Assembly (NCBI RefSeq): GCF_023555385.1
Contig: NZ_JAJSED010000001.1
Span: 806,001-870,000 of the forward strand
Reading direction: 5' to 3'
From: Guyparkeria hydrothermalis
GTDB taxonomy: Bacteria; Pseudomonadota; Gammaproteobacteria; Halothiobacillales; Halothiobacillaceae
Length of the DNA stretch: 64,000 nucleotides
In this document: piece by piece, positions 42,566 through 57,203 of the stretch
Layout of the letters: each line of letters starts with the position of its first letter
Numbering within the stretch: the stretch's first letter is position 1
Program-made: the position numbers and the translations under genes
The notes under the pieces: generated by a model
Seen by the model: only the letters and a program-made list of their open reading frames with translations
What the model was told of the DNA's origin: nothing
Database searches by the model: none

Positions 42566-44569
42566 TCACAGCCCGAATGGATAGGTATCTGCCGCCCCCT
42601 CGAGCGCGCGGCTGTCCAGCGGCGTGACCGCCCGACTACGGTCGACCCAGACATACTCGTCGAACTGCCGTGGCAATTCGGCGTGGAAGTAGTGACTGAC
42701 CCGCTCGGTCTCCGGCCGGTAGATCACGCCGACGGCGCGCTCCAGCCGCTGCTCGGCCAACCCGGCACGGACCTCGGCGTCGCCGTCTTCCCCCAGCGGC
42801 AGAAGGAAACCGGCGCGGCCGGTCTCGTGGCAGAGACGCTCGTAGCTGTCGGGCAGCGATGGCCGCAGGTTCTTGACCTCCATCGGCTCGTCCCAGTTGG
42901 AGGCGGCCGCCACCGTGCCGGTATCCGTGCCGAAACCGATCGTGTAGACGGCCTCGCCGTAGCGCGCCCGGCACAGCTGGCCGATATTGAATTCGCCCCG
43001 TCGCGACATGTCGGTGGCCCGCGCATCACCGACATGCGAGTTGTGCGCCCAGATGACGCCACGACTGCCCTCGCCGTGATGGACCAGCAGCGCCTCGAGA
43101 GTCTCGAACATGTGCGTATCGCGCAGGTTCCAGGAGCTGCGCGAACCGTAGAACATCGAGCGGTAGTACTCCTCGGCATTGGCGACCAGGCGGGCGTTCT
43201 GTACGGCATCGAGAAACCGGTCGCCATCCTTCTCGGCGTAGACGCGGTGGCGCTGCTGCAGGTCGCGCAGCATCTCGACCACCGGCGCCTCGCAGCCGGC
43301 ATAACCCGGACTCAGGGCCATGCGGGCATAGGTGGCCGGGTCGGGCTCGAACGGCGTCAGGCAGCTATAGCGTTCGCGGGCGACCATCGCCGCCTCGGGG
43401 TCGACCTCGTCAAGGTAGTCGAGCACTGCCGCGATCGAGTTGTAGAGGCTGTACAGGTCCAGCCCGTGGAAGGCGACCCGATCCGACGGTGCCCGCTCGG
43501 CATTGTGCCCGCGCAACCAGTCGACGAAGCCGCGCACCTCCTCGTTGCGCCACATCCAGGTCGGAAAGCGCGCGAAGGCCGTCCATTCGGATGGCGGATA
43601 CTCGGCGTGTCGCACGTAGTGGTCGATGCGGGCGGCATCCGGCCAGTCACCCTCGATCGCGACGAAATCGAAGCCCTTCTCCTCGATCAGCGCGCGGGTG
43701 ATGCGTTGTCGGGCCCGATAGAACTCGGAGGTGCCGTGCGATGCCTCGCCGATCAGGACGAGGCGGGCATCACCGATGCGGTCCAGCAATCCGGACAGCG
43801 GCAGGTCGTCGACCGAATCGAACGGCTCCGACACCGCCACCACGCGATCGACCAGGCGCTGATCGGCCTCGGAGACGGTCCGACGGCCGAAGCCTCGCCG
43901 AGGCCTTGGTGACGACTCGGACCAGCCGGCCTCGCCGACAAGCGGCACGAAGCGGACGTCGGCAAGGTCCTCGGACTGATACTCGTCCTCACCCACCCGG
44001 GTAATGCGCATCAGTTCCTGCACACCGTCATCCGATCCGACCGGCACCACCAGACGCCCGCCGATGGCCAGCTGCCGCTTGAGCGCCTCGGGCACCGTCG
44101 GACTGCCCGCCGCCACCATGATGGCATCGAACGGAGCGGCTTCCGGCCAACCACGCGAGCCGTCACCGGTGCGCACCTCGACGTTGGTGAAACCGGTCGA
44201 TCCCAGTGCCTGCTCGGCAAGCTCCGCCAGTTCACCGATGCGTTCGATCGTGAATACCCGCCCGGCGATACAGGCGAGCACGGCGGCGGCGTAACCGGAG
44301 CCGGTCCCCACGTCGAGAACCCGCTCGCCGCCGTTCAGGTCGAGTGCCTCAACCATCATCGCCACGATGGCCGGCTGGGTGATGGTCTGGCCGGCAGCGA
44401 TCGGCAAGGCCGTGTCGTCGTAGGCGAATTCGCGCAGATCGGCCGGCACGAAAGCCTCGCGCGGCACGCGCCGCATCGCATCGAGCACCTCGGGCGAGCG
44501 CACTCCCCTGGCACGAACCTGGTAGTCCACCATCGCCTCGCGACGGCTGGTCTGGTCCCGTTCGGTCAT
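42566..44569 (-). CDS. Fusion of protein-isoaspartate methyltransferase and erythromycin-esterase-like hydrolase
   Basis: A 667-residue two-domain protein. Residues 1 to about 215 are Pcm: the SAM motif VLDVGTGSGYAAAVLA and the substrate-binding ITQPAIVAMMVEAL. Residues about 235-660 are an Ere-like domain: LIGEASHGTSEFYRAR with the catalytic His, FDFVAIEGDWPDA with Glu, and VIWAHNSHVGDAR. The linker is about 20 residues, rich in Arg and Pro. Pcm repairs isoaspartyl damage; Ere enzymes open macrolide lactones, but most housekeeping relatives have unknown substrates. The ATG at 44569 has GGAGGAAGG directly upstream. It is divergent from amt. Similar fusions are known in other bacteria; their role is unsettled. 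Confidence 0.88.
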   Translation of the reverse strand: MTERDQTSRREAMVDYQVRARGVRSPEVLDAMRRVPREAFVPADLREFAYDDTALPIAAGQTITQPAIVAMMVEALDLNGGERVLDVGTGSGYAAAVLACIAGRVFTIERIGELAELAEQALGSTGFTNVEVRTGDGSRGWPEAAPFDAIMVAAGSPTVPEALKRQLAIGGRLVVPVGSDDGVQELMRITRVGEDEYQSEDLADVRFVPLVGEAGWSESSPRPRRGFGRRTVSEADQRLVDRVVAVSEPFDSVDDLPLSGLLDRIGDARLVLIGEASHGTSEFYRARQRITRALIEEKGFDFVAIEGDWPDAARIDHYVRHAEYPPSEWTAFARFPTWMWRNEEVRGFVDWLRGHNAERAPSDRVAFHGLDLYSLYNSIAAVLDYLDEVDPEAAMVARERYSCLTPFEPDPATYARMALSPGYAGCEAPVVEMLRDLQQRHRVYAEKDGDRFLDAVQNARLVANAEEYYRSMFYGSRSSWNLRDTHMFETLEALLVHHGEGSRGVIWAHNSHVGDARATDMSRRGEFNIGQLCRARYGEAVYTIGFGTDTGTVAAASNWDEPMEVKNLRPSLPDSYERLCHETGRAGFLLPLGEDGDAEVRAGLAEQRLERAVGVIYRPETERVSHYFHAELPRQFDEYVWVDRSRAVTPLDSRALEGAADTYPFGL

Positions 44570-44669
44570 CCTTCCTCCCCCGGCAGGTATCGCCGTGGCT
44601 GAAACTCGGGCTACCACCTCCTGGCCGGAGCATAGATGCTCCACGCCCCTCCGTCGGACAATCGACCGA

Positions 44670-44686
44670 AGCACCGCTATAGTGCA
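44670..44686. promoter_or_regulatory. NtrC binding site upstream of amt
   Basis: GCAC-N7-GTGC at 44671-44685 matches the NtrC consensus core with the correct seven-base spacer. Further GCAC half-sites lie at 44690 and 44702. It lies about 75-90 bases upstream of the sigma-54 element, a normal enhancer distance. Confidence 0.7.
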
Positions 44687-46161: not shown

Positions 46162-48888
46162 ATGCCTAGACACGACGGCCATCCGGATGACATGCACGCC
46201 CATCGACTACCCGTCGATGCGGTCCTCGACCATCAGGGAACCTCTCTCGAAAGCGGCCTGAGCGCTACCGAGGTGCGCGCCCGCCGCCGTCGCCACGGCC
46301 CCAACCGATTGCCTGAATCACGCGGCCCGTCCGTGTGGCGGATCCTGGTCAATCAGGTCGAGAGTCTGGTGGTGATCTTGTTGTTCAGTGCCGCCGTCGC
46401 GGCAGCGGCCTTCGGCAGCACCATCGAGGCGCTGGCCATCCTGGCCGCCCTGGTGGTCAACACAGCCGTCGGCTTCGCCATGGAGTGGCGCGCCACTCGT
46501 GCCATGGAGGCACTCGAGCGCATGGGCACCGCGCAGGTGCACGTCCGGCGCGACGGCAAGACGCACCGCATCGGTGCCGACCAACTGGTCCCCGGCGACA
46601 TCGTGCTTCTCGAGGCCGGCGACATGATCATGGCCGACATGCGGCTGGTCGAGTCCAACCGATTGCAGTGCAACGAGTCGGCCCTGACCGGCGAGTCCGT
46701 CGCCGTCGACAAGATTACCGAGCCGTTGTCCGAGGAGAATCCACCGATCGCCGACCGGCTCAACATGGCCTATTCCGGCACTGCGGTCACGCAGGGTTCG
46801 GGCAGCGGCGTGGTGGTGGCCACCGGATTGGCAACCGAGCTCGGCGAGATCGCCCGATTGGTCTCGGAATCGGGGCAATCGATCACGCCGCTGGAAAGAC
46901 GCCTCGACCGGCTTGGCCAGCGGCTGATCTGGCTCACGCTGGTGGTCGCCGTGCTGGTTGCCGGCGCGGGCATGCTTGCCGGCACCGATCTGCGCCTGAT
47001 GGTGGAAACCGCCATCGCCATGGCGATTGCCGCCGTGCCCGAAGGGTTGCCGGTGGTCGCCACACTGGCGCTCGCCCAGGGAATGCTCCGCATGGCCAGC
47101 CGCAATGCGCTGGTCAAGCGCCTGTCGGCCGTCGAGACGCTGGGCTCGGCGAACGTCATCTTCACCGACAAGACCGGCACGCTGACCCAGAACCACATGT
47201 CGCTTCACCGAGTAGTGCTCGAGCGCGGCACGGTGGAAGTTGAGGACAGCACATTCCAACTGGACCAGACCGCTCTCGATCCGGCGGAAACCTCCGACCT
47301 GCTCGCCTTCCTGGAAACGGCGGCGCTGTGCAACAACGCCAGCGTGGAATCGCACGGTGCGGTCGGCGACCCCACCGAGATCGGGCTGCTCGAGGCCGCG
47401 ACCCAAGCCGGTCTCACGCGGTCCACCCTGCTCGAGTCCTGGCCGGAGACCCGTGAGGTGAGCTTCGATCCGGCCACCAACATGATGGCCACCTATCATG
47501 CCGCCAACGACGGCTTCCGCGTGGCGGTCAAGGGGGCACCCGAATCGGTCATCGAGGCCTGCGATCGGGTGATGACCGCAGACGGGGAGCGGGCGCTCGA
47601 CGAGTCGGATCGTGCCGAATGGCGACGGCGCAGCGAGGCGCTGGCAGGCGATGGCCTGCGCACCTTGATGCTGGCGCAGAAGACCGTCGACGATGAGTCA
47701 GGCAATCCCTACGAGGGACTGACACTGCTGGGTGTTGCCGGGCTGCACGATCCCCCGCGACCGGGCATTCGCGAGACCATCAGTGCCTGCCAGGAAGCCG
47801 GCATTCGACTGGTGATGGTCACGGGCGATCACGACGCCACCGCCCGGGCGATCGCCCGCGAGATCGGCATTGCCGGGACCGACGCGCCGGCCACCGATCC
47901 CGCCGTTCTCGATCGTCTCGACGCCCTGTCCCCCGCCGAACGCGAGGCCCTGCTCGACCAGGGCGTGTTCGCCCGCATCTCTCCCCGGCAGAAGCTCGAA
48001 CTGATCCAGCTCTATCAGGAGGCCGGCTGGATCGTCGGCATGATCGGCGACGGCGTCAACGATGCTCCCGGTCTCAAGAAGGCGGATATCGGCATCGCCA
48101 TGGGACAACGCGGCACCGAGGTGGCTCGGGAGGCCGCGGACATGGTGCTCAAGGACGATGCCTTCGCCACCATCGTCGACGCGGTGCGGCACGGACGGAC
48201 CATCTTCCAGAACATCCGCCGCTTCATCGTCTACCTGCTCTCGGGCAATCTCGGCGAGATACTCGCCATCTCGGCCGCCGCGATGGTGGCCGCGCCGCTG
48301 CCGATGCTGCCCCTGCAGATCCTCTACATCAACTTTGTCTCGGATGTGATGCCCGCCCTCGCGCTGGGACTGAATCGCAGCGAGACGGGCATTATGGATC
48401 GCCCGCCCCGCGACCCGACCGAACCGATCCTGATGCGTCGCCACTGGTCGGCTATCGGGGGCTATGCGGTGATCATCGCGGCCACGGCATTGGCGGCCTT
48501 CGCCGTCGCCCTGCTCGTCCTGCAACTCGACACCGGGATGGCGGTGACGATCTCGTTCCTGACCTTCGGCTTCGCGCGGCTCTGGCACGTGTTCAACATG
48601 CGCAGCAGCCGCTCGGCGATGATCGTCAACGAGGTGACCCGCAACGGTTTCATCTGGGCGGCGATCGCCGTCGGCGTGCTCCTGCTGCTGGTGGCCACCT
48701 ATTTCGCCCCGCTCGCCGGCATTCTCGGCGTGACGCCGCCAGGCGGGCGCGAGTGGCTGCTGATACTGGGTTTCTCGCTGCTGCCGTTGCTGGTGGTCCA
48801 GTCGCTCAAGCGCGCCGGTCTGTGGTGGGAGCGCCCGGCCGACGTCGAACCGGCGAGTGATCAGTTGAGATCACGCGGGATCTCGTAG
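46162..48888 (+). CDS. P-type cation ATPase, Ca2+-type (P2A-like)
   Basis: A 908-residue ion pump. The phosphorylation site is IFTDKTGTLTQNHMS; TGES is present in NESALTGESVAVDK; the hinge is MIGDGVNDAPGLKKADIGIAMG. Transport-site residues match the SERCA-type pumps: AAVPEGLPVVATLA in helix 4, LSGNLGEILAI in helix 5, and YINFVSDVMPALALGLN in helix 6, which keep the Glu, Asn, Glu, Asn and Asp ligands. This favours Ca2+ over Mg2+ or heavy metals. The N-terminal 15 residues are His-rich (HDGHPDDMHAHR). An alternative start is ATG 46192. It overlaps the convergent S15 gene by 28 bases at the 3' end. Confidence 0.9.
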   Translation: MPRHDGHPDDMHAHRLPVDAVLDHQGTSLESGLSATEVRARRRRHGPNRLPESRGPSVWRILVNQVESLVVILLFSAAVAAAAFGSTIEALAILAALVVNTAVGFAMEWRATRAMEALERMGTAQVHVRRDGKTHRIGADQLVPGDIVLLEAGDMIMADMRLVESNRLQCNESALTGESVAVDKITEPLSEENPPIADRLNMAYSGTAVTQGSGSGVVVATGLATELGEIARLVSESGQSITPLERRLDRLGQRLIWLTLVVAVLVAGAGMLAGTDLRLMVETAIAMAIAAVPEGLPVVATLALAQGMLRMASRNALVKRLSAVETLGSANVIFTDKTGTLTQNHMSLHRVVLERGTVEVEDSTFQLDQTALDPAETSDLLAFLETAALCNNASVESHGAVGDPTEIGLLEAATQAGLTRSTLLESWPETREVSFDPATNMMATYHAANDGFRVAVKGAPESVIEACDRVMTADGERALDESDRAEWRRRSEALAGDGLRTLMLAQKTVDDESGNPYEGLTLLGVAGLHDPPRPGIRETISACQEAGIRLVMVTGDHDATARAIAREIGIAGTDAPATDPAVLDRLDALSPAEREALLDQGVFARISPRQKLELIQLYQEAGWIVGMIGDGVNDAPGLKKADIGIAMGQRGTEVAREAADMVLKDDAFATIVDAVRHGRTIFQNIRRFIVYLLSGNLGEILAISAAAMVAAPLPMLPLQILYINFVSDVMPALALGLNRSETGIMDRPPRDPTEPILMRRHWSAIGGYAVIIAATALAAFAVALLVLQLDTGMAVTISFLTFGFARLWHVFNMRSSRSAMIVNEVTRNGFIWAAIAVGVLLLLVATYFAPLAGILGVTPPGGREWLLILGFSLLPLLVVQSLKRAGLWWERPADVEPASDQLRSRGIS

Positions 48889-50897
48889 TCCCAGTTCTCG
48901 GAGAACACGCGCTTTTCCTCCTCGTGCTCGCCTTCGTAGGCATCGAGCTCGGCATGCAGCAGGAAGTGGGTCGAGGTCGCGGTCAGCACGGTGCGCGTGA
49001 CGGTACGTACCGCCCAACCGCCACGACGGTATCCCCGCTCCCAGAGCGTCTCGCCACGCGGTGACTGGTAGTCGTAGCCGCGGTAGCTGTACCACTCGAG
49101 CGCCTTGCGCTGCATCTCGAGATCGACCGGTTCGAGATAGACGGTGCCATCGTCGTTGATGACCTCGAGGGTGGATTCGTCGGTCTCGAGATCCCGCACC
49201 ACACGCCACTTGTGCTGGCCGGCCTCGACCCGCCGGGTCGGCGTGGGCGGAGCGCCCTCGGGCTGGGCGAATGTGATCTCGCGATCGCTCTCGTCGCGCC
49301 GCGGACGCTCGGGGAGCACCAGCTCGCTCGCGCCGGTGTGGATGGTCACACGTGTCGGCTGCGGCGCCGGCCACGCCAACGGCCAATAGGACGTCGATAT
49401 CGACACACGCAGGCGGTTCCCGGCGGGGAACACGTGGCCGATGTGATTCAGCGTGACCTCTACCCGGTAACGCCGCCCCGGCTCGAGCCGCTCGGGATGC
49501 TCCGAACTGTCACGGTGAGTGAGGTTCAGCAGGCCGTAGGTGACCCGGGTCGCCTTGTCGTCGGGGGCCACATCGGACAGGCGCACCGCGACCATCGCCA
49601 CGGGCTGGTCGACAGACAGATCAAGGACCAGACGCGGCGCACCGAGAATCTCCAGTGGCGTTTCCAGCCGGGCGGTGTCGAACACAAGCGCCCCGCCGTC
49701 TTCCTCGCGCTGGTCGTGCGGAAGATCCGGCGTGGCGGCGTAGGAACACCACTTGCCCGCAAAACGTCCCACCGAGAGCGGAGACTGGATCGACATCGGC
49801 ACCTCGTCGACCTCGGCATCTTCCGCCTCGAGCAGGCCCGGCCAGGCCAGGACCACGCGCCGGGAGCGGATTTCCGATGACGGCCAGCTCGTCTCGCCTA
49901 CCCAGCGGCCCGGGCGCTCCTGGTAGAACGTCGTCGGCGGCATGTATTCCTGCATCCAGGCACGGAGCATGGGTTCGTCCATGATCCCGGTCTCCTTGCC
50001 CTTGAGCCACTTGTCCCACCAGCGCAGGCATTCCTGCAGAAAACCGATCGCCGGCCCGGGGACACCCTGGTGGGGATACTTGTGGCTCCAGGGGCCAACC
50101 AGCCCCAGTCGCGGCACCTTGAGGCCGGCGAGCAACCGGAACACGGAATTGGTGTAGCCGTCGGCCCAGCCGGAGACGGCCATTACCGGGCACTGGATGG
50201 CATCCCAATCCTCGCAGACCGAGCCATGGCGCCAGTAGGCGTCCCGGCGCTGGTGGCGCAGCCACTTCTCGAGCCACAGGCCGCTGCCCTCGAGGCGTTC
50301 GAACCACATCTCCCGCCAGCGCTCGCCGACCATCTGCGGATCCGGCGGCAGCGAGTTGAAGGCGAACATCGTCGAGGCCCAGGAAAGGTTGTCCCCCAGC
50401 AGGCAACCGCCCATGTGGTGCACGTCGTCACCGTAGCGATCGTCGGTGGAGGCGACGGTGACCACCGCCTTGAGCTCCGGCGGACGCAGGGCGGCGATCT
50501 GCAGGCCGTTGAAGCCGCCCCAGGAAATCCCGATCATGCCGACCGAGCCGCTGCACCACTCCTGCGAGGCAATCCAGCGGATCACCTCGACGCCATCGTC
50601 CAGTTCCTGCTGCAGGTACTCGTCGAGCAGGACCCCCTCGGAATCGCCGCTGCCGCGCAGATCGACGCGCACACAGGCGTAGCCGTGGCCGGCGACGTAG
50701 GAGTGCATGACGTCGTCGCGCGCCCGGGTGTTGTCGCGGCGTCGGTACGGGATGTACTCGAGGATGGCCGGCACCGGCTCGGCCTCCGCACCTTCCGGCA
50801 GCCATAGCCGTGCGGCGAGTTGCGTGCCGTCACTCAGCGGAATCCAGACGAGTTCGATCTCGCGCACCGGGTTGGGCAGAGTGTCTATGCGCTTCAC
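48861..50897 (-). CDS. CocE/NonD (S15) serine hydrolase
   Basis: A 678-residue alpha/beta hydrolase of the X-Pro dipeptidyl-peptidase/cocaine esterase family, acting on acyl or peptide substrates. The catalytic triad fits S125 in IGISWGGFNG, D246 in SGWADGYTNSV and H272 in VGPWSHKYPHQG. A C-terminal jelly-roll domain (RVSISTSYWPLAWPAP) is typical. No signal peptide is present, so it is cytoplasmic. A GTG start at 50897 has an ideal GGAGG. It follows the ATP-grasp gene by 42 bases on the same strand, likely one operon. The substrate may be the product of that ligase; this is inferred from the pairing only. Confidence 0.88.
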   Translation of the reverse strand: MKRIDTLPNPVREIELVWIPLSDGTQLAARLWLPEGAEAEPVPAILEYIPYRRRDNTRARDDVMHSYVAGHGYACVRVDLRGSGDSEGVLLDEYLQQELDDGVEVIRWIASQEWCSGSVGMIGISWGGFNGLQIAALRPPELKAVVTVASTDDRYGDDVHHMGGCLLGDNLSWASTMFAFNSLPPDPQMVGERWREMWFERLEGSGLWLEKWLRHQRRDAYWRHGSVCEDWDAIQCPVMAVSGWADGYTNSVFRLLAGLKVPRLGLVGPWSHKYPHQGVPGPAIGFLQECLRWWDKWLKGKETGIMDEPMLRAWMQEYMPPTTFYQERPGRWVGETSWPSSEIRSRRVVLAWPGLLEAEDAEVDEVPMSIQSPLSVGRFAGKWCSYAATPDLPHDQREEDGGALVFDTARLETPLEILGAPRLVLDLSVDQPVAMVAVRLSDVAPDDKATRVTYGLLNLTHRDSSEHPERLEPGRRYRVEVTLNHIGHVFPAGNRLRVSISTSYWPLAWPAPQPTRVTIHTGASELVLPERPRRDESDREITFAQPEGAPPTPTRRVEAGQHKWRVVRDLETDESTLEVINDDGTVYLEPVDLEMQRKALEWYSYRGYDYQSPRGETLWERGYRRGGWAVRTVTRTVLTATSTHFLLHAELDAYEGEHEEEKRVFSENWDYEIPRDLN

Positions 50898-50939
50898 TCA
50901 CCACCTCCTGCAGAAAGGGAACGTGGAACCGGTCGCGGT

Positions 50940-52229
50940 TCAATCGACCGGGTGAAATTCCAACGGCAGGCGCGCCAACAACTCCCGATAGAGCCGGTGC
51001 ACCTCGTCATGGCCGGACCCGCCGAGAAAGATCACCGCCACCTCGTAGCTATAGGCATCCTGGCCACGCATCTCGGAAAGCCGATCGCCCTCCTCCACCT
51101 CGATCTGGATCAGCGCTCCGGGAAAATCGCGCTCCAGTACTTCGAGCTCCGCGCTCGTCGGCACACGGGTGACCACGGCGTCCTCGTAACGACGAACCAT
51201 GTACTTGACGGCCACCTGGTGCCGGCCTTCCCAGCGCGGGAACGAAGGGCGATGGCCGAGGGCAACATCGATCGCCACCTCGTGATGCGAGGCACCGGCG
51301 ACGTCGATGAACAGTGGCGAATGCGACTTCGAGATGCGGGTGTTCACCTCGAGCAGCCAGATCTGGTCGGCGGTCTCGTCCCAGAAGTACTCGATGTTGA
51401 ATGGCGTATCGTCGAGCTCCATCGCCGGGATGGCTTCACGGGTGATTTCGATCATCCGCGCCTGCACCGATTCGGGCAGTTGCGACGGAAACTCGTAACG
51501 CCCGAATGACGAATTCATCATCCCTTCCCGGATCGAGTCGACCACGCCGTAGACCGACACCCGGCCGTGACGAACATAGCCCTCGAGGGTGCATTGCCAG
51601 CCGTCGATCGGCTTTTCCAGTGTGCAGTGATAACCATCGATCGTGGCCGGGATGTCGTCCGGCAGCGAGACCCGCTCCATGAAGCGCGCGAAAGGCTCGC
51701 CGAAACGGTTGATGCCCGCCCGCAAGCCAGCGAGTGCATCATCGAGCTCACGCGGGCCATCGACCCGATAGACCATCTGCGAGGAGAAGCCGATGTTGGG
51801 CTTGATCCAGAAGGGATAGTCGAGCGTGACCTCGCGGGCGGCCTGTTCGTCGAACGGGTCGAGGCTCTGGAAGGCGGGGATGTTTTCCGGGACCACCGTT
51901 GCCTGACGCAGGCGCGACCAGTACTTGTGCTCGGCGATCAGGATGCTTTCCAGACTGGGCCCCGGCAGGCCGAAGGCGTCACGGAAGATGACCCGCAGGG
52001 CGTAGGTCGGGAAGTCCCAGTGACCGATGACCGCATCGGGACGCACGCCGGCGCCCTCGATTTGCCGCATGCCCGTCTCGATCATCTCGTCGATCGGGTA
52101 CGAGGCCGGGTTGACCATCATCCCGTAGGGCAGCAGGCCGTGAAAGGCGTACTCACGGGCGTGCCGGACAGTGTTCAGCTGCCTGAGGTGGAAGTCGTCC
52201 AGCCCGATGACGAACACATGTCTGGTCAT
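50940..52229 (-). CDS. ATP-grasp ligase of unknown substrate
   Basis: A 429-residue enzyme likely forming an amide or peptide bond with ATP. The ATP-grasp core is visible: DYPFWIKPNIGFSSQMV with the nucleotide-binding Lys (K143), FNIEYFWDE (E280), and IWLLEVNTRISKSHSP with metal ligands E294 and N296. A short internal repeat, IDGYHCTLE and IDGWQCTLE (residues about 198-216), lies in the centre and holds two cysteines. GAGGAGG precedes the ATG. With the S15 hydrolase it forms a two-gene operon. Substrates cannot be told; relatives include D-Ala-D-Ala-ligase-like and biotin-carboxylase-like enzymes. Confidence 0.82.
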   Translation of the reverse strand: MTRHVFVIGLDDFHLRQLNTVRHAREYAFHGLLPYGMMVNPASYPIDEMIETGMRQIEGAGVRPDAVIGHWDFPTYALRVIFRDAFGLPGPSLESILIAEHKYWSRLRQATVVPENIPAFQSLDPFDEQAAREVTLDYPFWIKPNIGFSSQMVYRVDGPRELDDALAGLRAGINRFGEPFARFMERVSLPDDIPATIDGYHCTLEKPIDGWQCTLEGYVRHGRVSVYGVVDSIREGMMNSSFGRYEFPSQLPESVQARMIEITREAIPAMELDDTPFNIEYFWDETADQIWLLEVNTRISKSHSPLFIDVAGASHHEVAIDVALGHRPSFPRWEGRHQVAVKYMVRRYEDAVVTRVPTSAELEVLERDFPGALIQIEVEEGDRLSEMRGQDAYSYEVAVIFLGGSGHDEVHRLYRELLARLPLEFHPVD

Positions 52230-52377
52230 GAGTCCTCCTCGAACAGCACGCGGCCGGCCACCGCACGTGACCGCTCGCCTGTCAGTTGGGATCGTCGAGG
52301 AAGAAGATAGCAGTCTGGGGGCACCACTGCCGGCCGCGGGGCACTCGCCATGACCCGTCGTCAGTGCCGGCGGCTAC

Positions 52378-54771
52378 TTACGTGCGCGCCTTGTGTGCTT
52401 GTTTCTGTCGATACATGGAGTCGTCGGCGGCCGCGAGCAACTCCTCAACGGTCGTACCCGAATCTGGGTAGACCGCCAGGCCGACACTGGCACTTGGATT
52501 AAGAGTCAGCTCATCAAGCTGGACGGGCGACTCGATCGCCTCATGGATCTTCTCCGCCACACGCTCGACCGCCTCCGGATTGACCGGCCGAGCGACCAGC
52601 ACCGCAAACTCGTCGCCGCCCTGCCGGCTGACAGTGTCCTCGTCGCGCGTGACCGTCTCCATGCGCCGAGCGAGCTCGACCAGCAGACGGTCTCCCACGT
52701 CGTGGCCATAGGTGTCGTTGATGGGCTTGAAATCATTCAGATCCACGTACAGTACGCCCACGCGCTCACCGTGACGTTCGGACGAGGAAAGTGCCCGCTC
52801 TAGACGCTCGTGGAACAAACTGCGATTGGCCAGCCCGGTCAGCGCATCGTGATGGGCCTTGTGCCACATAGCCCACTCGCGGGCCTTCGCCTCAGAGATA
52901 TCCGAGAACATGACCACGAACCGCCGATCTCCAAGATCGCTGGTAATCGAGGTGAACGAGGCCAAAGTCGGGAAGAAGTTGGTGCCGTCGCCAAATCGGC
53001 GCAACCAGAGCTCCCCTTCCCAGCTGCCGGCAGCCCGCAACACCTCACGCACCTGGTTAAAAGGTGTGGTGTCGTCACGATCGAACACCAGTTCGTCAAC
53101 GAACCGGCCGAGCAGCTCGGACTGGTCGTTTCCCAGCAGATGCTCGACCGCGGGGTTGGCCGACAGAATGCGCCCCGATTCATCAGCTATCACCACGCCC
53201 TCGTGGGTAGTCCGCAGGATGGTCGCCGCCTGCCGGGATTCCTCACTGGCGATAATACGGTCGGTTATGTCTTGCGTTGTCCCGACCATCCGAGTTGGAC
53301 GCCCCGAGCCATCGCGCTCGACCGTACCGCGCTCGTGCACATAACGGATCTCGGTATCGGGGAGCACGATACGGTGGTCGATCTGGTAGGTGTTTCCCGT
53401 CTGCAGCGAACCTTCCACGGCCTGTTCGACCCGCTCGCGATCGTCGGGATGGACCATCTCCATGAAGCGCTCGTAGGTCGGCGTCAGGCTCCCCGGCTCC
53501 TGACCGAAAATCCGGTAGACCTCGTCGGACCAGGACAGCCTGTTGCTGCCGACATCGAAACGCCAGCTGCCTACCCGGGCAATCCGCTGTGCCTCGTTGA
53601 GCATCCGAAGCCAATGTTCCCGCTCGCCGGCACGGCTGGACTCCCGCAGATTCATGTAGATCATCGATCCGATGGTCAACAGCACCAGCATGGCCGTCAG
53701 ACCCACCTTGATCCACAACCACGACCAGGCTTCGGCAAGCTGCGGCGCGGCGGCGTAGCGAAGCAGATAGGCCCCCTTGAGCCCCGTCGTGGTCTCGATG
53801 GGCAGGAAAGAGACCACGGCCGGCTCGGGTTGCCGCGTGGCCACGGAGAAGGTCTGCCAGTCGTTCATGCGCCGACGCACCCGGGGGCCGACGGCCTCGC
53901 CGATCTCGGCCAGTCGTGACTGACTCCAGTTGCGGGCCATCGGCAGGACGTCGGTGAGCTGGGTCAGATCCGCATGCCAGTCAATGACGAAACCCGGGTG
54001 CATGACCGAATCCATGTAGTTGTGCCGGCGCTCGTCGTCCCAGACCTTTCTCACCACCAGATCGCGGGAGACCAGCAGCCGGTAGGCACCGAGGTGTCTG
54101 TCGCCGTGAGAAAGCAGAAAGGAGCGAAACGAGTACGACGTCTCGACCGAGCCAACGAACTCCCCCTCGAAGTACAGCGGGAAAATGTAGCGAAAGCCGT
54201 TGAAGACCCGCCCCTCCTCGAAGCCGCTGACCGGCACGCGCTCGGTATTCACTCGGGCAATGCCGGTACGCACCTTCCACAAATCGTCGCCGAACTTCTC
54301 CGGGCGGTGAAAGCGCAGGAAGCTGATGGCCCCCGGCAAATGGAAATGCAGCTGGCGAAAGCCCTTGTCGCGCATCCGCTCATACAAAGGTCCGAGCCGA
54401 TCGAGCAATTCGGCGCGCAGATCGGCGAGCCGCTCCGGGTCTTCCGTACGCGACGCCGCGGCCATCAGCCGGAGGACTTCGGGCTGGTTGATCTTGTCCT
54501 CGAAGACCTGGTCGGCAAGCTCCGCCTGGTACTGGCTCAGCGCCCGGTACTCGATCGTAAGATGCTCGACCGACTTGTCCTGGGTGGACCTGACGAGGTC
54601 GGCGTAGGCATCCAGGTACGACCAGAGCAACAACAGAAACACGAGGCCGCCGAAGATCGCCACCAAGGTATTGCGCAACCTGATGCGATGTTTGACGCCG
54701 TCCGTTTTCGATTTGGCGGGGGTCCGATCCTCTGACACGTTGACGGTTCTACTCCCGAAATATCTGCCCAT
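52378..54771 (-). CDS. Membrane diguanylate cyclase: double-Cache-like sensor, two PAS, GGDEF (copy 2 of tandem)
   Basis: A 797-residue protein. Helix 1 is at about residues 35-53, a periplasmic Cache-like domain at about 60-345 (LHFHLPGAISFLRFHRPEKF), helix 2 at about 352-373, PAS domains at about 400-505 and 520-625, then GGDEF at 718-722 in RQGGDEFAVLV. RDED five residues before it is the RxxD inhibitory site. It is a close paralogue of the cyclase just upstream. The ATG at 54771 lacks a clear ribosome site; a GTG at 54738 with GGGAG upstream is an alternative. Input ligand unknown. Confidence 0.9.
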   Translation of the reverse strand: MGRYFGSRTVNVSEDRTPAKSKTDGVKHRIRLRNTLVAIFGGLVFLLLLWSYLDAYADLVRSTQDKSVEHLTIEYRALSQYQAELADQVFEDKINQPEVLRLMAAASRTEDPERLADLRAELLDRLGPLYERMRDKGFRQLHFHLPGAISFLRFHRPEKFGDDLWKVRTGIARVNTERVPVSGFEEGRVFNGFRYIFPLYFEGEFVGSVETSYSFRSFLLSHGDRHLGAYRLLVSRDLVVRKVWDDERRHNYMDSVMHPGFVIDWHADLTQLTDVLPMARNWSQSRLAEIGEAVGPRVRRRMNDWQTFSVATRQPEPAVVSFLPIETTTGLKGAYLLRYAAAPQLAEAWSWLWIKVGLTAMLVLLTIGSMIYMNLRESSRAGEREHWLRMLNEAQRIARVGSWRFDVGSNRLSWSDEVYRIFGQEPGSLTPTYERFMEMVHPDDRERVEQAVEGSLQTGNTYQIDHRIVLPDTEIRYVHERGTVERDGSGRPTRMVGTTQDITDRIIASEESRQAATILRTTHEGVVIADESGRILSANPAVEHLLGNDQSELLGRFVDELVFDRDDTTPFNQVREVLRAAGSWEGELWLRRFGDGTNFFPTLASFTSITSDLGDRRFVVMFSDISEAKAREWAMWHKAHHDALTGLANRSLFHERLERALSSSERHGERVGVLYVDLNDFKPINDTYGHDVGDRLLVELARRMETVTRDEDTVSRQGGDEFAVLVARPVNPEAVERVAEKIHEAIESPVQLDELTLNPSASVGLAVYPDSGTTVEELLAAADDSMYRQKQAHKART

Positions 54772-54827
54772 CAGGATATCGCGTAGGCGTCGCCGGGGCG
54801 AAGACCGCCAACCGGCTGAATATCCTC

Positions 54828-57203
54828 CTAGACGCCCTGATCGTGCAGCTTTCGCGCGGCATTGGCTTCCTTGCGCCGACGCTTCTCCTCGTACATGGCA
54901 CGGTCGGCGGCCTTCAGCAGCACCTCGGCGGCCTCGCCATCGTCAGGATAGATCGCCATACCGATGCTGGGCTTGATCCGGAGCTCATGGCCCCGCCAGA
55001 CGACGGGGCGATCCAGTTCCACGCGCAGTTTGTCCACGACTGCATCAAGATCCGATCGGGACGTGGGTCGAGCGATCAGCACCGCGAACTCGTCGCCGCC
55101 CAACCGGCTCACCGTATCGGTCTCTCGCATGATGCTCTGCATGCGATTGGCCACCTCACACAGCAGGTGATCACCGGCATCGTGGCCCCAGACGTCATTG
55201 ACCGGCTTGAAGTCGTCCAGGTCGATATAGAGCAACCCGAGCAGGTCACCGTGCCGGCGCGCTTCCTTGATCGCCCGCGACATCCGTTCCTGAAGCAGCA
55301 CGCGGTTGGACAATCCGGTAAGCGCGTCGTGGTGCGCACGCTTCCACATGGCCGCCTCACGTTCCTTGAACAAGGTAATGTCCGTCATCATGCCGACGTA
55401 GCGGGTCGCGCCCCATTCCGAGGTCAACGATGTCAGGGACAGGCGCATCGGAATACGCTCGCCGTCCCGCCGCTTTTGCCAGGTTTCCCCTTCCCAGGCA
55501 CCCTCACGTTCCAGTTCCTTCCAGGCCTCCTCGCAACGCGGTTCACCGGGTTGATCCACGCAGAGGTTCACGGCTGGACGTCCAATAACCTCGTCCGGCG
55601 AATACCCCATCAACTCGGTGAACGCCGGATTGACGCGCAGGATGAGTCCGTCCTCGTCGGTGACCATGATCCCCTCGTGGGTCGATTCGATGATCGCGGC
55701 GGCCTGTCGGCGCTCCTCGTCGGCACGTCGCCGGGCGGTCACATCCTGCACCGTGCCGTAAAGGCGCCGGGGTGCCTCCCTGGGCTCGGCCCGGCCACGC
55801 GACTGGATGAACCGCAGTTTGCCGTCCTTGCGGTAGATCCGATGCTCGACGTTGTAGGCCGTGCCTTCTCGCATGGCCTGCTCCACGGCCGCCTGGATGC
55901 GCTCCCGATCGGCCGGATGGACCGCGTCGAGAAAGAGCTTGTAGGTCGGCTCGACCTCGCCGGGCTCGTAGCCGAAGATGCGGAAGATCTCGTCGGACCA
56001 ACGAACCTCCATCGAGGGCAGCAGACACTCCCAGTTACCCACGTTAGCCAGGCGCTGCGCCTCGCTCAGGCTCTGTTCGCGCTCATGCAGGGAGACCAGC
56101 AGTGCCTCGCGTTCACGCGCGCGTCGCGTCTCGCGACGATCGAGGTTGACGACCAGCACGATGGCCACCAGCAAGAGCAGGCCCGTGAACAGGATCTTGA
56201 ACCATAGGTACTGCCATTCACGCCCCATCGCCGGCGCTTCCTCGTAGCGAACGATGTAGGCACCCCAATCACCGGCAATCGTCTGGATGGGCAGGAAGGC
56301 GACCACCAGTGGTCGACGCTGGTGCAGCGTGACGGCAAAAGCGTCCCATTCGGCCATTTGGGCCGCCACTCGCGTTCGGAGGGACTCGTCGAAATCCGGG
56401 AGACTCTCAAGCAGCCAGCCGTATCCGGGTGGTGTCAACCCCGGATTGGCGACCAGATCGGCATAGCGATCCACGTGAAATTTCGGGTTGAGATTTGCCG
56501 CCAGGTAGTTCCGCGAGATGGCACCTTCCCACCCCTTCTTTCGAACCAGATCCCGATCCACCAGCAGGCGATACAGTCCGTGATCTAGCTCCGAATGGTG
56601 GAGCAGCACGGCGCGGAACGAGAACGACACCTCCACCGAACCGACGAACTCGCCCCGGTGGAACAACGGGTAGACGTGGCGGAAGCCATTGAACAGCCGC
56701 CCTTCCTCGAAGCCGGCGATGGGAGTCTTTTGCTCGTTGACGAATCGCAGACTGGCACGCACGTCCCACAAGGAGTCACCGAAGCGCTCGGGACGATGGA
56801 AACGGAGGAAACTGACCGCACCGGGCAGGTGGAAGTGAAACTGGCGAACCCCCTTGTCCTTCAGACGGGGGTAGAGATCCTCCAGGGAGGCAAAAAGCCG
56901 ATCGCGGAGCACGGCTCGCCGTTCCGGAGCGGACGCCTTGGTCGCCTCGGCCATGATCGCCGTGACATCGGGGCGCTGCAGGCGATCCTCGTAGACCTGA
57001 TCCGCCAGCAGGCCCTGCCAGTCGGCCCAGGCGTCATACTCGGCATGCAGATGGCCCAGGGCCCTTTGCGTCGTGGTGTTCTCGAGCTCCTGGTATCCCT
57101 GCCAGTAGCTCCACACCAGCAGGCCATACCCGACGACGCCGAGTACCAGCGTGATCAGATGGCGCGTATTCCGTCTGACAATCGATTTCTGCCCCAACAG
57201 CAC
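54828..57203 (-). CDS. Membrane diguanylate cyclase: double-Cache-like sensor, two PAS, GGDEF (copy 1 of tandem)
   Basis: A 791-residue protein with the same order as the next gene: helix about 15-34, Cache-like domain about 40-325 (FHFHLPGAVSFLRFHRPERF), helix about 333-353, two PAS domains, and GGDEF at 702-706 in RLGGDEFAVLI. RETD before it is the RxxD site. The start is a GTG at 57203 with GGGAGG close upstream. The 56-base gap to the paralogue suggests one transcript. The closeness of the sensor motifs in the pair indicates local duplication. Confidence 0.9.
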   Translation of the reverse strand: MLLGQKSIVRRNTRHLITLVLGVVGYGLLVWSYWQGYQELENTTTQRALGHLHAEYDAWADWQGLLADQVYEDRLQRPDVTAIMAEATKASAPERRAVLRDRLFASLEDLYPRLKDKGVRQFHFHLPGAVSFLRFHRPERFGDSLWDVRASLRFVNEQKTPIAGFEEGRLFNGFRHVYPLFHRGEFVGSVEVSFSFRAVLLHHSELDHGLYRLLVDRDLVRKKGWEGAISRNYLAANLNPKFHVDRYADLVANPGLTPPGYGWLLESLPDFDESLRTRVAAQMAEWDAFAVTLHQRRPLVVAFLPIQTIAGDWGAYIVRYEEAPAMGREWQYLWFKILFTGLLLLVAIVLVVNLDRRETRRAREREALLVSLHEREQSLSEAQRLANVGNWECLLPSMEVRWSDEIFRIFGYEPGEVEPTYKLFLDAVHPADRERIQAAVEQAMREGTAYNVEHRIYRKDGKLRFIQSRGRAEPREAPRRLYGTVQDVTARRRADEERRQAAAIIESTHEGIMVTDEDGLILRVNPAFTELMGYSPDEVIGRPAVNLCVDQPGEPRCEEAWKELEREGAWEGETWQKRRDGERIPMRLSLTSLTSEWGATRYVGMMTDITLFKEREAAMWKRAHHDALTGLSNRVLLQERMSRAIKEARRHGDLLGLLYIDLDDFKPVNDVWGHDAGDHLLCEVANRMQSIMRETDTVSRLGGDEFAVLIARPTSRSDLDAVVDKLRVELDRPVVWRGHELRIKPSIGMAIYPDDGEAAEVLLKAADRAMYEEKRRRKEANAARKLHDQGV

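Follow-up and report, generated by a model that had tools for sequence, protein, structure and literature searches.

The gene pair and its predicted control signals

We examined two neighbouring genes in a 64,000-nucleotide stretch of DNA (hereafter 'the window'; contig NZ_JAJSED010000001.1, positions 806,001 to 870,000) from Guyparkeria hydrothermalis, a gammaproteobacterium whose genome is a single contig of 2.39 Mb. The genes encode an ATP-grasp ligase and an S15 hydrolase of the CocE/NonD type, and together they may form a salt-adaptation cassette. A first-pass annotation, made from the letters and open reading frames (ORFs) of the window, had described the two genes as lying 42 bases apart with strong ribosome sites, and its ORF positions proved exact. 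The features of the pair, all on the minus strand, are as follows.

50940..52229, minus strand: ATP-grasp ligase gene, 429 amino acids, ATG start, predicted L-amino-acid-ligase-type amide synthetase (ORF, Pfam, AlphaFold model, fold match)
48861..50897, minus strand: S15 CocE/NonD serine hydrolase gene, 678 amino acids, GTG start (ORF, TIGR00976, Peptidase_S15, PepX_C, predicted model, cocaine esterase match)
50898..50939, minus strand: intergenic gap of 42 bases, from ligase to hydrolase (sequence)
50902-50909, minus strand: AGGAGGTG, Shine-Dalgarno-like, ahead of the hydrolase GTG (sequence)
52234..52240, minus strand: GAGGAGG, ribosome-site-like, ahead of the ligase start codon (sequence)
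52304..52312, minus strand: TGCTATCTT, promoter −10-like element, kept in relative G005 at locus L016 (conservation)

The TGCTATCTT element provides weak evidence that the ligase gene has a promoter of its own; a scan for sigma-70 consensus promoters gave no match. The conservation of this promoter-like element before the ligase gene, together with the 42-base gap, is compatible with a bicistronic unit. We also considered a transcript shared with the upstream GGDEF gene, and rejected it because relatives break that gene order and the spacer contains the conserved promoter-like element.

Predicted structure and conserved residues of the ligase

The ligase matches the Pfam family ATP-grasp_4 (42.5 bits, cut-off 27), and its AlphaFold model has a mean predicted local distance difference test (pLDDT) score of 95.9. 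Three L-amino acid ligases lead the list of solved folds: 3vot (BL00235; Z 31.9 over 385 residues), 3wnz (YwfE; 28.7) and 3vmm (BacD; 28.4), and amino acid ligases likewise ranked first when the model was submitted to Foldseek (E 1e-21). Purine-pathway ATP-grasp enzymes are close behind on the fold list (Z about 28), with biotin carboxylases lower; only BL00235 has a clear lead, YwfE and BacD being level with the purine enzymes on Z. Its predicted model places the ligase in the L-amino acid ligase fold group, as a divergent member. Residues K102, K143, E280, E294, N296 and R298 are invariant in an alignment of 52 relatives, and we presume, from general knowledge of ATP-grasp enzymes, that they serve ATP/Mg binding, catalysis and substrate binding.

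51336..51350, minus strand: ligase E294-x-N296-x-R298 motif, predicted Mg/phosphate and substrate site (invariant in 52 relatives)

Predicted structure and conserved residues of the hydrolase

The hydrolase matches Peptidase_S15 (229.6 bits) and PepX_C (166 bits) in Pfam, as well as the NCBIfam model TIGR00976 CocE_NonD (221.8 bits, cut-off 66.3); these matches, each exceeding its curated cut-off, assign it to the CocE/NonD family. Residues 5-533 of its predicted model (pLDDT 87.7) match cocaine esterase (Z 28.0) and the alpha-amino acid ester hydrolases (Z about 24.5). Alignment to cocaine esterase (CocE) places a complete catalytic triad and a likely oxyanion tyrosine at positions that are invariant in 37 relatives.

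50523..50525, minus strand: catalytic Ser125 (HMMER alignment to CocE Ser117)
50160..50162, minus strand: catalytic Asp246 (aligned to CocE Asp259)
50082..50084, minus strand: catalytic His272 (aligned to CocE His287)
50745..50747, minus strand: Tyr51, likely oxyanion tyrosine (aligned to CocE Tyr44)
48864..49295, minus strand: extra C-terminal beta-rich domain, residues 535-678 (secondary structure; outside the listed solved CocE-type structures)

The hydrolase had been called cytoplasmic, and by-eye inspection of its N-terminus, which contains no hydrophobic signal stretch, agrees with that description. Distant relatives of the hydrolase on alphaproteobacterial plasmids adjoin oligopeptide importers. 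On Ancylobacter plasmid pB (L144:2802-12465), two CocE genes are interspersed among genes for glycine betaine ABC transport and a gene for a carbon-nitrogen hydrolase.

Conservation of the pair across genomes

We assembled 80 loci from a genome collection, by means of a five-sequence alignment, and four further loci from a whole-genome search. Among 87 full-length ligase matches, 60 have a CocE gene downstream on the same strand, 12-261 bases away; contig ends cut four further pairs, and two are in reverse order. The hydrolase gene precedes the ligase gene in G317, G253, L071 and L087, and the two are divergent in G143, adjacency being mostly kept. The pair is adjacent in dozens of genomes from several phyla, and because the flanking genes differ between genera, we regard the two genes as a conserved unit. 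Across 370 gammaproteobacterial genomes, the hydrolase subfamily (counted as present at >1000 bits) occurs in 18 of the 20 genomes that carry the ligase and in 1 of the 350 that do not (Fisher p=2e-27, relatedness ignored). The first-pass annotation had made its case depend on the pair recurring elsewhere; the gene-neighbourhood analysis finds strong co-occurrence, with adjacency surviving changes of order and flanks. Beyond Pseudomonadota, the range extends to Thermodesulfobacteriota and to single metagenome-assembled genomes (MAGs) labelled Planctomycetota and Actinomycetota, the last two of which could be binning errors.

Within the hydrolase tree, the ligase-paired proteins account for nearly all members of one supported clade, which is separate from most of the importer-linked relatives; in the ligase tree, paired and solo ligases are interleaved. 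A scavenging role, in which the hydrolase would break down amides or dipeptides taken up from outside and the ligase would handle the amino acids set free, would fit the importer-linked relatives, as well as TRAP transporter genes that adjoin the pair or lie close to it in Desulfogranum and Nitrosomonas. Most ligase-paired copies, however, have no adjoining importer, and scavenging has no need for a ligase that consumes ATP, so that we consider this explanation improbable.

Several loci depart from the usual arrangement. A Halothiobacillus MAG (L021:246-2824) has two diverged ligases in tandem before one hydrolase; the window ligase groups with the first copy, and the second falls elsewhere. 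A relative of the same genus, G002, carries a deletion remnant (L020:9835-10220) in which ligase residues 1-32 are joined to hydrolase residues 421-528 between conserved flanks. Its sequence marks a recent loss, and since only this remnant is kept, the pair is dispensable in some settings. In Nitrococcus and relatives (L034:10001-15830, L026 and L070), a solo ligase lies beside genes for a CsbD-like small protein (assigned by eye), an Fe-alcohol dehydrogenase, an aldehyde dehydrogenase and a glutamine-synthetase-like protein. The ligase relatives that plasmid searches returned were all distant ones, in Paraburkholderia and Sphingobium, and had no CocE neighbour. Biotin-synthesis-like neighbours of the Halomonas copies were considered as a general functional link and set aside as synteny within that genus.

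Association with osmolytes and salinity

Nearly all the named hosts are organisms that we take, from their names or known habitats, to be saline or marine: Halomonas, Thioalkalivibrio, Ectothiorhodospira, Halorhodospira, Microbulbifer halophilus, Nitrosomonas marina, Desulfogranum, Marinobacter and Thiohalocapsa. G. hydrothermalis itself has an ectA-ectB-ectC-like cluster. Among the 20 ligase-bearing gammaproteobacterial genomes, 10 have ectC and 9 have a glycine/sarcosine N-methyltransferase (GSMT) above cut-off; one or both are found in 17 of the 20, as opposed to 59 of the 350 other genomes (p=2.9e-10, relatedness again ignored), with 13 of 14 families represented.

Physical links to osmolyte genes are stronger evidence than this genome-wide association. 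In G078, a single strand carries in succession genes for GSMT (505 bits, cut-off 350), an SDMT-like protein (sarcosine/dimethylglycine methyltransferase; below cut-off), ProV, a ProW permease, OpuAC, the ligase and the hydrolase, so that the pair apparently ends an operon for betaine synthesis and transport. In G281, G416, G405 and G408, the ligase and hydrolase genes are followed by a gene for an M20 deacylase of the ArgE/DapE type and then by a convergent gene for a fusion of an EctC-like domain with an ATP-grasp domain (~560 amino acids), between flanks that differ; G407 shows this module in part, its contig ending there. The fusion thus occurs in five genomes of two genera.

L101:11053-12735, L137:10032-11711, L138:10639-12342, L118 and L117: EctC-like/ATP-grasp fusion proteins with an altered EctC metal site

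The fused domain matches PF06339 (133 bits). Catalytic residues and the iron ligands Glu57, Tyr84 and His92 have been reported for EctC of Paenibacillus lautus (PMC6344544). All five fusions retain Trp21, Ser23, Arg25, Thr40, Tyr52, Glu57 and Tyr84 of ectoine synthase, but in all five the metal ligand His92 is replaced by Ile or Val, Asn38 by His, and Phe106 by Leu, Val or Ile. Because His92 is lost, we describe the domain as EctC-like and not as an ordinary or proven ectoine synthase; a related molecule may be what it binds or converts. Solitary EctC-type proteins have been described as functionally unresolved (PMC5924519).

Several observations weigh against a salt-adaptation cassette. About a quarter of the ligase matches (21 of 87) have no adjacent hydrolase, and the p-values for the pair and for the osmolyte markers both leave phylogeny out of account. 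EctC and GSMT also mark saline life generally, an osmolyte gene is usually absent beside the pair, and the betaine operon is a single case. The EctC-like fusion is confined to one family and, given the substitutions in its EctC domain, may do no ectoine chemistry. An alternative is that the link to ectoine and betaine reflects shared habitat only and that the pair yields a different metabolite of marine or saline life, for example an antioxidant, a signal or a dipeptide antibiotic. Variable neighbours are in keeping with this explanation (TreS in Thiogranum, MdoH in Thiohalobacter, and, directly upstream of the pair in one Thiohalocapsa MAG, L041:7213-9494, EgtB and EgtD of ergothioneine synthesis), as is the nearness in fold of the bacilysin ligase BacD. 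The EctC-like fusion and the betaine operon, on the other hand, are physical links, and among the genes beside the pair we saw no recurring exporter or resistance gene; we consider shared habitat alone to be a rather unlikely explanation.

Of the roles that the first-pass annotation had offered for the pair, the osmolyte option is the one with real support: ectC and GSMT are associated with the ligase, an EctC-like domain is fused to an ATP-grasp domain in relatives, and one betaine operon includes the pair. The same evidence qualifies its remark that neither gene has a recognisable partner pathway in the window, since relatives supply one. Its detoxification option found no support among the recurring neighbours of the pair.

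Proposed nature of the bond made and cleaved

The first-pass annotation had proposed an amide or an ester as the common product and substrate of the two enzymes. Of these, the amide is favoured and the ester is less likely, because L-amino acid ligases, which form dipeptides, have the folds nearest to that of the ligase and because an ArgE/DapE-type deacylase and a D-Ala-D-Ala-ligase-like protein accompany the pair in a subgroup of relatives. In this M20 subgroup, the deacylase scores 242.7 and 269.6 bits (cut-off 217.6), the D-Ala-D-Ala-ligase-like ATP-grasp companion falls below the NCBIfam cut-offs, and a companion resembling gamma-glutamyl-GABA (gamma-aminobutyrate) hydrolase, also below cut-off, is present in one case. 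These companions suggest that the bonds concerned are amides of amino or diamino acids.

The two enzymes might also act in the same direction, with the ligase making a precursor and the hydrolase trimming it or transferring an acyl group to finish the product, so that there would be no cycle of making and breaking. The hydrolase is akin to the alpha-amino acid ester hydrolases (Z about 24), which are capable of acyl transfer and also of amide synthesis, and the tight, constant pairing fits a linear pathway. The oligopeptide importers that adjoin relatives of the hydrolase in alphaproteobacteria suggest, to the contrary, hydrolysis of small amides, and we judge a same-direction pathway unlikely.

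Proposed function of the pair

The explanation that we prefer, and to which we give roughly even chances of being correct, is that the ligase is an amide synthetase driven by ATP and the hydrolase a serine amidase matched to it, the two together setting the level of a salt-protective amide. The ATP-grasp enzyme would spend ATP on turning a carboxylate into an activated acyl-phosphate and would then join it to an amine, in the manner of the L-amino acid ligases; the product would be a compatible solute that is an amide or resembles a dipeptide, or a conjugate of such a solute. Within that cell, the CocE-type hydrolase would cut this amide, so that the compound is removed or recycled as salinity drops. 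The analysis itself shows the pair, its conserved linkage, the folds, the intact active sites and the association with makers of ectoine or betaine; we infer the amide chemistry, the identity of the substrate and the opposing roles, by which a bond formed by the ligase would be cleaved by the hydrolase.

As to the acyl donor we can only guess: acids of the compatible-solute type (resembling ectoine or betaine, or else a diamino acid that is acylated) are what the fused or neighbouring domains handle, and the donor may be one of them. By chemical reasoning, ectoine and betaine could act only as acyl donors in a ligase of this type, since the carboxylate of each is free but neither has an ordinary free amine. 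Our confidence in any named compound is far below that in the proposed function as a whole. Going further, we suggest tentatively, and doubt more than we believe, that the pair serves a class of compatible solute not described before, in which ectoine, betaine or a related diamino acid is present as an amide. This ATP-grasp family would make the solute and a dedicated CocE hydrolase would break it down, in halophiles belonging to several phyla; the EctC-like fusions would act on the same molecule, which would give part of the solitary EctC proteins a role. A search of openly licensed papers found no published account of the pair. If the proposal is correct, many well-studied halophiles (Halomonas, Thioalkalivibrio, Ectothiorhodospira and marine Nitrosomonas) hold a salt-protection metabolite of which we found no description.

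Neighbouring genes in the window

The pair is flanked in the window by genes for a P-type ATPase and for GGDEF proteins. The pair is preceded on its own strand by genes for two tandem dCache/PAS/GGDEF proteins (52378-57203, minus strand), whose number and place vary in relatives. Further away, a protein-L-isoaspartate methyltransferase (PCMT) and an erythromycin-esterase domain are fused in one ORF (42566-44674, minus strand), an arrangement kept in three relatives of the same genus. No Rfam family was found in the window.

Comparison with known systems

The hydrolase shares its fold, Ser-Asp-His triad, oxyanion tyrosine and PepX_C domain with cocaine esterase and the alpha-amino acid ester hydrolases, and differs from them in its extra C-terminal beta domain of ~140 residues and in having a ligase partner. 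The ligase shares its whole-chain fold (Z 31.9 to 26.4) and an ATP-grasp_4-type domain with the L-amino acid ligases BL00235, BacD/YwfE and RizA, and the Glu and Arg of its E-x-x-x-R motif are likewise present in BL00235. Its identity to BL00235, BacD and RizA is only 14-17%, and unlike them it is found outside antibiotic clusters, with a constant CocE partner and in saline hosts.

Two known systems pair an ATP-grasp ligase with a hydrolase in a comparable way. The N-acetylglutaminylglutamine amide (NAGGN) osmoprotectant system, which comprises a GNAT/ATP-grasp synthetase, an asparagine-synthase-like amidotransferase and an M42 peptidase, works alike in setting a ligase and a hydrolase to osmotic adaptation. 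We rejected membership of that system, because the window ligase has no GNAT domain (Pfam and NCBIfam scans show ATP-grasp only) and no amidotransferase or M42 peptidase lies beside the pair or was seen to recur in relatives, S15 taking the place of M42. Carnosine synthase and carnosinase, an ATP-grasp enzyme and an M20 enzyme, resemble in their pairing the module of relatives that includes an M20-type hydrolase; the pair described here differs from them in belonging to other subfamilies, in being bacterial and in having an S15 hydrolase as its constant partner.

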